A stretch of 41,437 nucleotides of DNA from a virus. The translations under genes were made by a program, and so were the position numbers. Position 1 is the stretch's first letter. The number at the start of each line of letters is the position of its first letter. The notes under the pieces are model-generated. The model was not told the origin of the DNA. It saw nothing but the letters and a program-made list of their open reading frames with translations, and made no database searches. Shown here piece after piece: positions 32,580 through 37,581 of this stretch. The DNA is taken from positions 1 to 41,437 of the IMG/VR virus record IMGVR_UViG_3300018080_000058, one strand, 5' to 3'.

Positions 32580-33899
32580 CTATGCTGCCGGTCCTCTAGA
32601 CCAGCCGCTTTGCGCCAAGCCATTGAACGCCCCCCCAGCGGAGTCCCATCGGTCGTCATGCGGCACGTCGGTGCCGCCCACAGCCGTTATCTCGTCCAGC
32701 CACCCCAGGTTCCAAGCGCCCCGCACGATCCGCACATTGCCATTCTGGGCCTGCCGTATGAAGGGCATGCCGCGCGTGATCTTGTTTCCGGTTGCGGGCC
32801 AGGGCTTCACATTGTAGCCTGCCATAGCGGTGATCATGGTATGGACGAACAGCTTCCCCGATGCCCCGCCCTCCTGCTCAATCCCGATGGGCACCCGCCG
32901 CCCGTCTAGCTCGGCAGTGTGCTTCATCACGCGCTCCACGTCGCCTGGGCCCCAGCGCCCGCGAACCACGTCCATGACATAGTATAGCTTGTCCGCGCCC
33001 AGCCCGATCAGCGTCCCCACAGTGTAGTCTGGATCTCCCTTGGTCTTTTCCCCCGACGCTGCCAAGTCCCAGAACCGATGCTGTTTGATGATGCGGCACG
33101 GCACCGCGTCCACCACTGGAAACCATTCCCGCTTGGCTATGGCGCCGCCTGGACGTGCATCCCAGTTACCCTCCTCGTACCATTGCCTCTCTAGCTCGGT
33201 GAGCAGCCTCAGGGCCTGCCTATACTCCTCCTGGTCCAGGTGCGGGTTGTCCTCCAACGTGGCTGGAATGTAGGGCCGCTCTGGATTGCCCGGCTTCACA
33301 AAACGCAGCTTGACCCATTCGTGCCCGATGCCCCCTGGGTTGCCCGCGCTCCGCATCCGCAACGGGACGTTCGCCCCCTGCAGCTTGCGCAAGCGGCTGA
33401 ACAGGTAGCGGTACTGCGCTTCCCCGAACTGGGTCAGCTCGTCAAAGCCTATAAACTGGAAGGCCGCGCTCTGATAGCGGTTCTGGCTCCGTGGCGTGTC
33501 CAGATACCCGAACGTCAAGGTCGCCCCAGATGGAAACTGCCACTGGTGCCTGTTCGCCTGCCAGTGCGCGTCCGTGTTCCGCAGCCAGCCATCCGCGCGA
33601 TCCATCAGCGCCTCGGGCAACTTGAGATCCTCGTAGGTCTTGCGCAAGAGCAGGGCCGCATAGCCTTTCACGTCCACATACTGCAGCGCCGCCATGAGCA
33701 GCGCGTCCGACTTGCCGCCCCCTGCAGCGCCGCCGTAGAAGGCCTCCATATGCGGCAGCCACAGGAACGCCTGTTGCTTCGGCGTGGGCACGTGCGGTAT
33801 ATACTTACTCCACTTCGGTACCGTCAGGGGCTTCAGGCGGGGCTTCGAGCGCACCTGCCGCAGCCAATATCCTGAGGACCTCTGCAGCCCTATCGTCAT
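32580..33899 (-). CDS. terL: Terminase large subunit
   Basis: 439 residues. The ATPase has a Walker A G-G-A-A-G-G-G-K-S (56-64), Walker B F-I-G-F-D-E (149-154) and coupling S-A-G-N-P-G-G (184-190). The RNase H-like nuclease has D278 (R-F-W-D-L-A-A-S), E341 (G-I-E-Q-E-G) and an aspartate cluster near 415-419 (P-H-D-D-R-W-D). The start at 33899 (ATG, weak GGAG upstream) overlaps the small subunit gene by 95 bases; an in-frame GTG at 33854 is a shorter alternative without a ribosome site. Confidence 0.95.
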   Translation of the reverse strand: MTIGLQRSSGYWLRQVRSKPRLKPLTVPKWSKYIPHVPTPKQQAFLWLPHMEAFYGGAAGGGKSDALLMAALQYVDVKGYAALLLRKTYEDLKLPEALMDRADGWLRNTDAHWQANRHQWQFPSGATLTFGYLDTPRSQNRYQSAAFQFIGFDELTQFGEAQYRYLFSRLRKLQGANVPLRMRSAGNPGGIGHEWVKLRFVKPGNPERPYIPATLEDNPHLDQEEYRQALRLLTELERQWYEEGNWDARPGGAIAKREWFPVVDAVPCRIIKQHRFWDLAASGEKTKGDPDYTVGTLIGLGADKLYYVMDVVRGRWGPGDVERVMKHTAELDGRRVPIGIEQEGGASGKLFVHTMITAMAGYNVKPWPATGNKITRGMPFIRQAQNGNVRIVRGAWNLGWLDEITAVGGTDVPHDDRWDSAGGAFNGLAQSGWSRGPAA

Positions 33900-34320: not shown

Positions 34321-36219
34321 TCAATTTCGTTCCGTTTCGAGCGCCTCAGCGAAACGTGGCGGCAGGGCTACCTCGATTGGCCCGCAAGCCTCCACAGCGC
34401 GCCGCCAGTCGCCCTTCACAAACACCAGCACGTTCTGATGGGTCTTGCCCAGCTTGCGCCCGCCCGCGAACAGCTTTGACGTGCGGATGGGCAAGCTGCC
34501 TACGGCTGTCACTAGGATGGCCTCGTTGTATAGCTCGCAGCCCGCGTCCCTGAAAGCCTGGATCGTGTCGCTGACGAAGTTGCGGTACACCCCGTTCTGA
34601 TCGCGCAAGTCGCCCACGACAAAACAGGCGAACCGGTCCTGGCGCAGCTTTGCCACAGCATCCGCCACGATATGCCGGTATGCCTGCAGGAAGCCGTCAT
34701 ACGTCGGGATCGCTGATAGCTCCCCTGGCAGATCGGAGTAGACTTCCAGATCATAGTAGGGGGGGCAGCTGAACAGGAAGTCACACTTCCCGTCGACCAG
34801 CTTCCCAACCTCGTGCCCGTCGCCCACGATCCATCGCGGCCGATCCACCGCCCCCCCAGCCTGCGGTCTGATGCCCACCTCCCACAGACAGTCCCCCGCC
34901 TGCAGCCAAGGAATCGTCTTCGCCTCATAGATCGGGTCAAGGGCCACTCCGCGCCAGCTGGTCGTCCCTGCCGCATCATGATAGCTGCCGTCTGCATCCA
35001 CCAGCTTCACCATCTCCGCCCAGCCCGGCGGGGCCCATTTGTTGAGCCTCTTGGTAGGGTCCGCCCCCACGACCACGCCCAGCACCGGCACGTCCCGCCC
35101 CACATCCTGCAGACCCCATAGGATGCCGGCAAGGGACATGGCCGATCCAACCGGAACGACCAGCCGCTCCATATCAGCCGGCAAGTTCCGCGTCTGCAGC
35201 CGTGTCAGCGCCACAGCCTTTTGGCACTCCATGCCGAACGGGATCTCTCGCCAACCCCGTTCCGCCGCATCGTCTCGCGCCCGCGCGATCAGCACGCTGT
35301 TCCGCCCAGGATGATGTTGCACCACGTCCGCGCCCAGCGCCCGCGCCTGCTCCAGCTCTGCGGTCAGCTCTCCTGAGGGCACGTGTACCCGACAGGGTAT
35401 GCCCATAGCCCTCGCCAAGTGAGCGATGATGAGCACTTGCGGCGATTCGCGCGCCCCTGCCGTGACTAGCCCTGGCGCGCCCTCAGCCAACGCCGCTGCC
35501 GTTCGAACCTTCCCCCCACATACTCCCGCCACAGCAAAAGCCGAGTCCCGTTTGATCCAGCAGTCGTCCAGCTGCAGCACGGGCGTCAACGCCTCAGGGT
35601 CGCTCGTTACGTCCCCTCCAGGGCCAAAGATCATGTCGGATTGACGCCGATTCTCCTCCACTTGCTCAGGCCGCAGGTCTATGCCCACATATTCGCGCCC
35701 CAGGTAGGCGGCCACCACGCCCCGCACGCTGCCGCCCGCGAACGGGTCCAGCACTCGGAATCCTGGTCCCGTCCACCACGTATAGGCACATTCGCACAGC
35801 ACGGGGTCAAAGATCGACGTTCCTGTCTGTTCGGTCAGCTTGCCCTCCGTGCTGAAGGCTGGCTGATAGTGGGTCCGTACCTCGTGCGAAAAGCCCAGTA
35901 GATTCTGATCGCGCTCCCCGTTCCCGCCTGGACGGAGCACGCGCTCATTCGGCGGTATAGCGCCCAGCGTCCCCTGGGTTTGCCTGTCGAACCGCCGCGC
36001 TTGCCCTGGACTGCCGCTATAGTCCAGCGTGCCGTCGGGAGCCCGTCGGACCCCTGGCGGATGCGGCGGTATGGTCTTTGGTGCAGCCCCGCGCCCTACC
36101 TCGCTCCGAATCCCAAGGTCAATCCATGCCCTCTTCCGCCGCTGCCAGTACCCTTGGCGCGCGTCCAGAACGGAGAAGGGCGGCACCACAAAGCGCTCGC
36201 GCAAGGTGTCACGCGCCAT
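34321..36219 (-). CDS. DNA methyltransferase split by an inserted PLP-dependent (fold type II) enzyme-like domain
   Basis: 632 residues. The SAM-binding motif I D-P-F-A-G-G-S (158-164) and acidic motif II G-I-D-L (179-182) lie in the N-terminal half. Catalytic motif IV C-P-P-Y-Y-D (485-490) and the rest of the amino-methyltransferase fold lie in the C-terminal half. Between them, about 214-440, is a domain like ACC deaminase/tryptophan-synthase-beta type PLP enzymes. I-K-R-D is followed by C-G-G-K-V-R-T with K237 as likely Schiff-base lysine, then V-T-A-G-A-R-E-S-P-Q-V in place of the usual Q-S-N-H loop, and V-V-P-V-G-S-A-M-S. Neighbours are ParB-like and glycosyltransferase genes. A combined base-modification enzyme is inferred. 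Confidence 0.82.
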   Translation of the reverse strand: MARDTLRERFVVPPFSVLDARQGYWQRRKRAWIDLGIRSEVGRGAAPKTIPPHPPGVRRAPDGTLDYSGSPGQARRFDRQTQGTLGAIPPNERVLRPGGNGERDQNLLGFSHEVRTHYQPAFSTEGKLTEQTGTSIFDPVLCECAYTWWTGPGFRVLDPFAGGSVRGVVAAYLGREYVGIDLRPEQVEENRRQSDMIFGPGGDVTSDPEALTPVLQLDDCWIKRDSAFAVAGVCGGKVRTAAALAEGAPGLVTAGARESPQVLIIAHLARAMGIPCRVHVPSGELTAELEQARALGADVVQHHPGRNSVLIARARDDAAERGWREIPFGMECQKAVALTRLQTRNLPADMERLVVPVGSAMSLAGILWGLQDVGRDVPVLGVVVGADPTKRLNKWAPPGWAEMVKLVDADGSYHDAAGTTSWRGVALDPIYEAKTIPWLQAGDCLWEVGIRPQAGGAVDRPRWIVGDGHEVGKLVDGKCDFLFSCPPYYDLEVYSDLPGELSAIPTYDGFLQAYRHIVADAVAKLRQDRFACFVVGDLRDQNGVYRNFVSDTIQAFRDAGCELYNEAILVTAVGSLPIRTSKLFAGGRKLGKTHQNVLVFVKGDWRRAVEACGPIEVALPPRFAEALETERN

Positions 36220-36920
36220 GTCCTGCCGCCCCGCGTCACGCGCCGAATGTAGCCTGGATACATGCCCATCAAGCGCCGTATGGCCGTCTCTTCCATGGCC
36301 TGCGTCCGATACGTTTTGCAGCCGCCCTCCGTGTCCCAGTGGGCGTTCTCCCAGTATAGGTATTGCGCGCTCACGATCAGGCCGTCATCCCGCAGGCACC
36401 GCAGGCACAGCTCATAGTCCTCTTTCACCGGAAATGACGGGTCAAACCGCAGCCCATGCTCAAGGCATATGCCCATGCAGGAGGCCGTGACGTAGCTATG
36501 CCAGCGAAAGGGCTTCCACGGGTAAACGCTCCTGGATGCGCTCTGCGTTGCCAACCCCCAGATGCGCGCGCCCACGCCCCGCGCCACGTCAAAGATCTTT
36601 GCAAACTCTGCCAGCCAGACGCGCTCTGGCAGCGGATTGTGGCTGGTCTGCGTCGGTAGCAGCTGGACCCAGCCTGCAGCTTTCACGTCGTCATCCACAA
36701 AGACAAGATCGGCCTCGCCCTGTTCCTCCGCCCAGCCCAGCACCCAATTGCGCGTGGCCGTGATCCCTGTCACGTCCGCGGGCACGGGCACCACAGCCCC
36801 GCCGTCCAGCCGCTGATAGTCCCGTGCTTCCCCAGCAGGCACAAACAGCGTCGCCGTGGTCAGGATCTCCCGGCTTCGAACGTGCCCCGCGCGCCCCTTA
36901 CTCGGTATCGCTATCAGCAT
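36096..36920 (-). CDS. TET-associated-type glycosyltransferase (TAGT-like), GT-A fold
   Basis: 274 residues from ATG at 36920, where the family-like N-terminus M-L-I-A-I-P-S-K-G-R-A-G begins; an upstream extension would be shadow sequence of the ParB-like gene. G-I-T-A-T-R-N-W-V-L-G-W-A precedes the metal-binding D-D-D (in V-F-V-D-D-D-V). Later K-E-D-Y-E-L and G-G-C-K-T-Y-R fit the TAGT acceptor/catalytic region. TAGTs are predicted to add sugars to oxidised DNA bases in phages. It overlaps ParB-like (23 bases) and methyltransferase-PLP genes (124 bases). No TET/JBP dioxygenase is seen in the genome. Confidence 0.75.
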   Translation of the reverse strand: MLIAIPSKGRAGHVRSREILTTATLFVPAGEARDYQRLDGGAVVPVPADVTGITATRNWVLGWAEEQGEADLVFVDDDVKAAGWVQLLPTQTSHNPLPERVWLAEFAKIFDVARGVGARIWGLATQSASRSVYPWKPFRWHSYVTASCMGICLEHGLRFDPSFPVKEDYELCLRCLRDDGLIVSAQYLYWENAHWDTEGGCKTYRTQAMEETAIRRLMGMYPGYIRRVTRGGRTWRVTPCASALWCRPSPFWTRAKGTGSGGRGHGLTLGFGAR

Positions 36921-37581
36921 CCGCGCTCTCCAGCATGTCCAGCAGGTCTGCAGCATAAACCACGCGGTTGACGCCCTTGGCGTCGAAAGGGCTGCCGATC
37001 TTGTACCCGCCCCGCCTGGACATGCGCAACCCCAGGGCCTCCTGCAGCCGCGACCATTCCATATCGCTTTGGCACATGACCACCACATACTCGCGCGCTG
37101 GCCGCAACTGCACAGCCTGCTCTAGCAGCACCTCGTCCGTCGCGCTGGTCTCCACGCCGCGCCCGTTGCCCTTCTCTTCGGGTAGCAGCTCGCCCAGAAG
37201 CTCAGCCACGCCTACCTCAGACGTCTGGACGCCCTGTAGCAAATCGCGCAAGGCTGCCTCATCGGTCTGGGCCATAGCAGCCACAGGGTCCAGCGTGGCC
37301 AGCATGTAGCGCTCCTCCTGCTCGCTCAGCTCCACTTCCAGATAGGGCACGTCCTCATCGCCGTTCTGCAGCGCCTGCCAGACCCGTTCATGCCCGTCCA
37401 GTAGGTATCCCGTGGTCACGTTTACGATCACCCGCTGGACCCAGCCTATCTCGTTCAGAATGCCCCGCATGGCCTCCCTCTGGCCTTGCGGGTGTACCCG
37501 CCAGTTCTCAGGATGGGCCAGGAACTGGCTTGCGGGCTGTACGCCTTCGCCCACTATGCGGTTCTTCCAGCTGGGTGCCAT
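36898..37581 (-). CDS. ParB N-terminal-fold protein
   Basis: 227 residues. ParB/Srx-like core at about 20-100: H-P-E-N-W-R-V-H-P at the beginning, then I-G-W-V-Q-R-V-I-V-N, L-L-D-G-H-E-R-V-W-Q-A-L (the G-H-x-R nucleotide-binding motif) and V-P-Y-L-E-V-E-L-S. After an acidic linker, a C-terminal domain (about 150-215) contains M-S-R-R-G-G-Y-K-I-G-S-P-F. There is no ParA gene and no helix-turn-helix. In phages such domains often accompany DNA methyltransferases, so a targeting or nucleotide-dependent role in modification is more likely than partitioning. Confidence 0.75.
   Translation of the reverse strand: MAPSWKNRIVGEGVQPASQFLAHPENWRVHPQGQREAMRGILNEIGWVQRVIVNVTTGYLLDGHERVWQALQNGDEDVPYLEVELSEQEERYMLATLDPVAAMAQTDEAALRDLLQGVQTSEVGVAELLGELLPEEKGNGRGVETSATDEVLLEQAVQLRPAREYVVVMCQSDMEWSRLQEALGLRMSRRGGYKIGSPFDAKGVNRVVYAADLLDMLESADADSDTE

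Follow-up and report, generated by a model that had tools for sequence, protein, structure and literature searches.

Why would a virus carry a pyridoxal phosphate (PLP) enzyme in the middle of a DNA methyltransferase? The question is raised by one gene in the stretch of virus DNA analysed here (‘the window’: all 41,437 nt of IMG/VR record IMGVR_UViG_3300018080_000058). The first-pass annotation, made from the letters of the window, had placed this gene at 34321–36219 and described it as a methyltransferase whose SAM-binding motif I (DPFAGGS) and catalytic motif IV (CPPYYD) lie more than 300 residues apart, with an intervening segment resembling a fold-type-II PLP enzyme and with the two chemistries coupled. 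The open reading frame is real and encodes a protein of 632 residues (P0001); like all called genes of the window it reads on the minus strand, a point on which the annotation was silent. The separation of the motifs was borne out, motif I (D158–S164) and motif IV (C485–D490) being 327 residues apart, and for the PLP-like segment we prefer boundaries at approximately residues 213 and 447 over the 214–440 given originally (Table 1). The chance that the fusion is an artefact of assembly or annotation is negligible: this explanation is refuted by independent records, since dozens of independent contigs show the same architecture, as do the cultured phages Pam4, R6L and ZS04.

Table 1. Features of the methyltransferase–PLP locus and its neighbours (residue numbers refer to P0001).
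Feature	Position (nt)	Strand	Basis
Virus DNA window, IMGVR_UViG_3300018080_000058, 41,437 nt	1–41,437
Methyltransferase (ParB-associated) with inserted PLP domain, P0001, 632 aa	34321..36219	-	ORF, Pfam, PHROGs phrog_498 and phrog_12517, AlphaFold2 model
Conserved ‘PPFSVLDARQGYWQ’ peptide, residues 1–50	36070..36219	-	tblastn segments
Methyltransferase first half, residues 131–199, motif I DPFAGGS (158–164) and motif II	35623..35829	-
Fold-type-II PLP domain, residues ~213–447	34879..35583	-	Pfam, AlphaFold2, Foldseek, conservation
PLP-domain landmarks: CGGK 234–237 with putative Schiff-base lysine K237, ESPQ 258–261, phosphate loop VGSAMS 357–362, YEAK 431–434
Methyltransferase second half, residues 460–632, motif III and motif IV CPPYYD (485–490)	34324..34842	-
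TAGT-family (TET-associated) glycosyltransferase	36096..37088	-	PF20691 (E 1.7e-11), PHROG phrog_842
ParB-like protein	36898..37581	-	phrog_620 and N-terminal part of phrog_498
Terminase	32580–33899

A methyltransferase in two pieces and the PLP domain between them

The SAM-binding motif I and the Rossmann core are both present in P0001, as judged by the Pfam match and the AlphaFold2 cores: the end of N6_N4_Mtase (PF01555) matches residues 152–189 with an E-value of 1e-7, above the gathering score, and a phmmer search of the PDB aligns residues 462–538 and 141–188 with the methylase 2zie in reversed order. By sequence the nearest enzymes are beta-class N4/N6 methyltransferases, but with their halves the other way round: the beta-class order is motif IV before motif I, and in P0001 motif I comes first. 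Motif IV is itself unusual, for its leading Cys departs from the (D/N/S)-P-P-(Y/F/W) pattern of amino DNA methyltransferases, and C-P-P-Y replaces the usual D/N/S-P-P-Y in 155 of 158 family members. When the insert-less methyltransferase was used for a fold search, generic class-I methyltransferases only were returned. A model of an insert-less viral methylase aligns across the P0001 insert (TM 0.82 of target, rmsd 2.3, 486 columns), indicating that the insertion leaves the surrounding methyltransferase fold intact. In the AlphaFold2 prediction for P0001, which used an alignment including 74 relatives, pLDDT is for the most part ~90–98 in both the PLP domain and the methyltransferase core, and residues 49–133 are predicted to be disordered; the two outer pieces are modelled as one SAM-dependent methyltransferase, so that an intact methyltransferase and an intact PLP fold, for which the first-pass annotation had suggested looking, both appear with high confidence. 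The N-terminal ‘PPFSVLDARQGYWQ’ peptide is strongly conserved; in the window it belongs to the methyltransferase, and in many relatives the ParB gene ends with it instead.

The segment between the two pieces belongs to the PALP family (PF00291; residues 218–391, E-value 1e-13, 51.7 bits against a cut-off of 35). Residues 219–278 and 349–387 match D-cysteine desulfhydrase in a phmmer search of the PDB, and the HMMER alignments put K237 on the PLP lysine of that enzyme and ESPQ on its QSNH loop, in agreement with the earlier proposals that the CGGK lysine forms the Schiff base and that ESPQ is an altered QSNH. A Foldseek search of the PDB likewise returned D-cysteine desulfhydrase first (E-value 2e-12, probability 1.00), with ACC deaminase next, and then threonine deaminase and O-phosphoserine sulfhydrylase. 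The best matches to the ACC deaminase and D-cysteine desulfhydrase equivalogs of NCBIfam reach ~20–35 bits against cut-offs of ~290–610; since no named equivalog reaches its cut-off, the PLP part is by membership a PALP enzyme, and neither an ACC deaminase nor a desulfhydrase.

Has this domain retained its active site? The first-pass annotation had named loss of the lysine and of the phosphate-cup residues in homologues as the observation that would speak against a PLP enzyme, and the reverse was found. Across 80 relatives of the subfamily that we call PLP-A, K223, R224, K237, R239, Y431, E432 and K434 are invariant, and S259, G358, S359 and D428 each vary at most once (G358 is kept in 80/80 and S359 in 79/80). 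It is improbable, then, that the domain has lost catalysis and been retained for a structural, DNA-binding or ligand-sensing role. Such retirement would fit the trimming of the domain, which has ~235 residues against 320–340 in full-length relatives, and the fact that an unrelated Cys-rich domain can occupy the insertion site instead; it sits badly with the near-invariance of the lysine, the flanking Arg/Lys, Ser259, the phosphate loop and the Tyr-Glu pair in 80 divergent sequences, with the many PLP copies that are free-standing genes, and with the retention of lysine and phosphate loop in PLP-B, a second, sister subfamily homologous to PLP-A (hhalign probability 99.5). The inserts of loci L009 and L083, considered as possible unrelated domains, are PALP by Pfam and belong to PLP-B.

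The Tyr-Glu pair also bears on a possible role in sulfur chemistry. In DNA phosphorothioation DndA supplies sulfide from cysteine, and by analogy the sulfur for a DNA modification could come from (D-)cysteine, with the PLP part freeing it as sulfide. D-cysteine desulfhydrase is indeed the best fold match, and a PAPS-reductase-like gene lies near the system in Erythrobacter phage R6L. Y431-E432, however, lies in the motif LDPIYEAK (80/80), which matches the DPVYEGK of ACC deaminase and differs from the DPVYTGK of D-cysteine desulfhydrase: the pair is of the ACC-deaminase type, and not the desulfhydrase Tyr-Thr. PAPS-reductase/DndC-type proteins (PF01507) occur in 6 of 45 related records and are absent from the window, and we consider this explanation highly improbable; membership in the Dnd phosphorothioation system is rejected for want of the PP-loop DndC-type partner in the window. 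We read the insert as a trimmed fold-type-II PLP enzyme of the ACC-deaminase/D-cysteine-desulfhydrase branch that is predicted to be catalytically competent and is probably active.

The insertion site

In the AlphaFold2 secondary structure the insert lies between the helix at 184–198 and the strand at 462–465, i.e. in the alpha-B to beta-3 loop. A helix-to-strand loop of this kind normally lies at the edge of a Rossmann-type methyltransferase that faces away from the SAM site, and this modelled placement argues for the fusion tethering two active sites rather than forming one shared site. Homologues on viral contigs that lack the insert mostly have just 2–8 residues here, as compared to ~260 in the window and ~190–296 in inserted relatives, and since these insert-less proteins are close relatives, the boundaries of the insert are clear. 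The closest methyltransferase core, that of locus L011, is 75% identical and has no insert: its junction reads GREYTGVELRAEQIEANETQAQALGLS-PR-WIHGDS, that of the window GREYVGIDLRPEQVEENRRQSDMIFGP-[insert]-PRWIVGDG.

On the methyltransferase tree the window groups with L011 and L014, both insert-less (SH-aLRT 96). The PLP-A insertion label requires 20 changes on this tree, at least five of them on well-supported branches, which indicates that the methyltransferase–PLP pairing arose or was lost repeatedly. The site also accepts a Cys-rich domain, which has weak Pfam matches to CxxCxxCC and DUF3109: it is found alone at the PLP insertion site in L010, L037, L073 and L075, and inserted together with the PLP domain in L100, L133 and L147. 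L156 and L160 also belong to the Cys-rich set, in which the domain replaces or accompanies PLP at the site or is fused C-terminally. This distribution suggests a third enzyme or a metal-binding component of the system. That one methyltransferase site accepts PLP-A, PLP-B or an unrelated Cys-rich domain is an unusual case of repeated domain insertion.

Pairing of methyltransferase and PLP enzyme across viruses

We searched viral contigs with the PLP alignments alone. A scan with single-sequence PLP patterns, which proved too specific, had found none, and the alignment-based scan succeeded. The PLP-A alignment recovered 79 new loci, and 72 of these carry a CPPY methyltransferase – in 57 cases in the same ORF – while for PLP-B the methyltransferase is present in 76 of 77 loci, within 100 bp in 73. 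Because the seeds for both searches were drawn from methyltransferase-linked loci, and because several loci are near-duplicates or lie on the same contig, the coupling percentages are upper estimates. As a control we took 80 viral loci picked by the window's terminase, and none (0/80) has the methyltransferase or the PLP enzyme. The partner methyltransferase lies in the same ORF, in an overlapping gene or nearby, and the architectures comprise insertion (55 ORFs), C-terminal fusion, a separate gene before or after, and insertion of PLP together with the Cys-rich domain. The variety of topologies in which the two are paired, set against 0 of 80 in the control, is strong evidence for the methyltransferase and the PLP enzyme acting in one pathway; the coupling put forward in the first-pass annotation thus gains a recurrent fusion and a near-obligate co-localisation.

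The pairing also bears on a simpler explanation, namely that the methyltransferase is an ordinary N4-methylcytosine or N6-methyladenine enzyme and the PLP part a metabolic helper acting on a small molecule – for example, making or removing a SAM-derived by-product or a D-amino acid – so that no hypermodified base is formed. In its favour, the PLP enzymes most closely related are small-molecule lyases, the methyltransferase also occurs with no PLP part, and the insert, judging by the predicted topology and general knowledge of the fold, sits at the edge remote from the usual active site. A general metabolic enzyme, however, could do its work without being integrated into, fused with or adjacent to a single DNA methyltransferase family in ~95% of its occurrences. 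PLP-A is, moreover, nearly absent from bacterial genomes: a pattern scan of ~85,000 bacterial and archaeal genomes, which misses divergent loci, gave four PLP-A matches, three of them with the methyltransferase. We regard the helper explanation as rather unlikely, and favour a shared pathway.

The pairing is not universal. No PLP partner was seen nearby for 36 of 85 methyltransferase loci, many of them on short contigs where absence is weak evidence, and the genomes of Listeria phage B054 and Enterococcus phage phiFL3A, isolates with the methyltransferase, gave no PLP match; PLP is thus not needed for every function of the methyltransferase family. Conversely, seven PLP-A loci lack the methyltransferase. 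PLP-A genes without a CPPY methyltransferase are seen in L120 (5585–7747), L121 and L123, and those of L120 come after a NUDIX-like gene and a gene for a ThyX-like thymidylate synthase. ThyX was rejected as a partner, being present in just 2 of 14 records, the methyltransferase-less contigs of L120 and L121. On the 257-kb contig of L122 (6953–10457) a PLP-A gene precedes an LPG_synthase_C-like transferase and two similar proteins, of which the first is class-I methyltransferase-like; the group may represent a different system of amino-acid transfer.

Proposed function and comparison with known systems

Upstream of the methyltransferase the window encodes a sigma factor, a ParB-like protein and a TAGT-family glycosyltransferase. 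The ParB-like protein is a separate gene here and is fused to the methyltransferase in many relatives; a ParB-like ATPase has been reported in deazaguanine DNA modification (PMC12839542). The glycosyltransferase, which has a DDD motif, lies between ParB and the methyltransferase, its ORF overlapping the 5' end of the latter by 124 bp. In T6-like phages, TAGT proteins have been proposed to attach a second glucose to cytosine that is already glucosylated (PMC13390438). None was found in the 49 other records searched, and TAGT is ruled out as a core partner, the window being the one record of 50 that has it. The terminase follows downstream in the window, and of the 15 related records in which it was located, 13 have it within 4 kb downstream and on the same strand; the gene for the large subunit usually follows the methyltransferase/PLP genes directly.

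We consider it probable that P0001 is a bifunctional DNA-modification enzyme whose methyltransferase and PLP parts serve a single pathway of phage DNA modification, which most likely operates late, ahead of packaging. Of the two, the methyltransferase would act on the base, and the PLP part would make, transfer or remodel an amino-acid-derived group that is incorporated into the final modification. A hypermodified base, as the first-pass annotation had suggested, would be a plausible product of such a pair. PLP-dependent steps are known from thymidine hypermodification. We infer DNA hypermodification, with DNA as the substrate of both steps, and also the order of the steps; for hypermodification we rely on the DNA-methyltransferase-type partner found next to ParB-like proteins, the packaging-side location and the window's glycosyltransferase. 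More broadly, it is possible, and we propose it tentatively, that a DNA methyltransferase and a tethered PLP lyase form a widespread system that attaches an amino-acid-derived group to a DNA base or remodels one there, and thereby yields a class of hypermodified base yet to be described; in some cases a third domain, Cys-rich and possibly metal-binding, sits in the same insertion site. If true, a large set of environmental phages has the amino-acid chemistry of a B6 enzyme firmly wired to a DNA methyltransferase, and their DNA should hold a new modified base, ready to be measured. That many related viruses keep both enzymes, fused or side by side, suggests an uncharacterised chemical alteration of viral DNA, and the question is directly testable in cultured carriers: Vincenzo and AlanGrant (on M. 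smegmatis), Pam4, R6L, ZS04 and Mae-JY30.

A literature search with partial coverage found no paper on a methyltransferase–PLP fusion, which suggests that the system is an apparently undescribed variant of phage DNA modification. Pam4_70 of Pseudanabaena phage Pam4 is, like P0001, a single protein with methyltransferase, PLP and methyltransferase segments in that order (46% identity over 97% of the query), but has a longer N-terminal extension (~830 aa in all) and no glycosyltransferase match; its record names the PLP half only, as a ‘pyridoxal-phosphate dependent enzyme’. Gp1 of Erythrobacter phage vB_EliS_R6L and gene 7 of ZS04 have a PLP domain at the identical insertion site, but of the PLP-B subfamily, and are annotated as DNA methylase, the methylase half only. 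In Mycobacterium phage Vincenzo the CPPY methyltransferase (gp1) and an overlapping PLP gene (gp2) are two genes and not fused; gp2 (L085:1406–2275) is annotated as a nucleoside or carboxylate deaminase. The PLP enzyme of Microcystis phage Mae-JY30 (L086:7111–7821) is annotated as a DNA modification methylase.

Among characterised enzymes, ACC deaminase and D-cysteine desulfhydrase have in common with the PLP part the fold, the Schiff-base Lys, the conserved Ser and the phosphate loop, but the viral domain is ~90 residues shorter, has SPQ for SNH and is tethered to a DNA methyltransferase. The best sequence relatives of the methyltransferase halves, the TTHA0409-type methylase (PDB 2zie) and other beta-type N4/N6 enzymes, have these halves in the opposite order (a circular permutation), lack the insert and have SPPY in place of CPPY. 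A further comparison is with CmoX/CmoY of Synechococcus phage S-B43, which carry out cytosine carboxymethylation followed by ligation of an amino acid (PMC12783734). CmoX-type carboxymethylation as such was set aside, as the motif there is SPPC and here CPPY; the S-B43 genome gave no match, which is weak evidence since that search had no positive control. CmoY, moreover, is an AMP-forming ligase, and no PLP is involved (PMC12783734). What is shared is the logic: a phage enzyme of the DNA methyltransferase type, frequently found close to ParB, adds a handle to which an amino acid can be joined (PMC12783734), and by analogy CmoX/CmoY could serve as a model of how the methyltransferase–PLP pair works.
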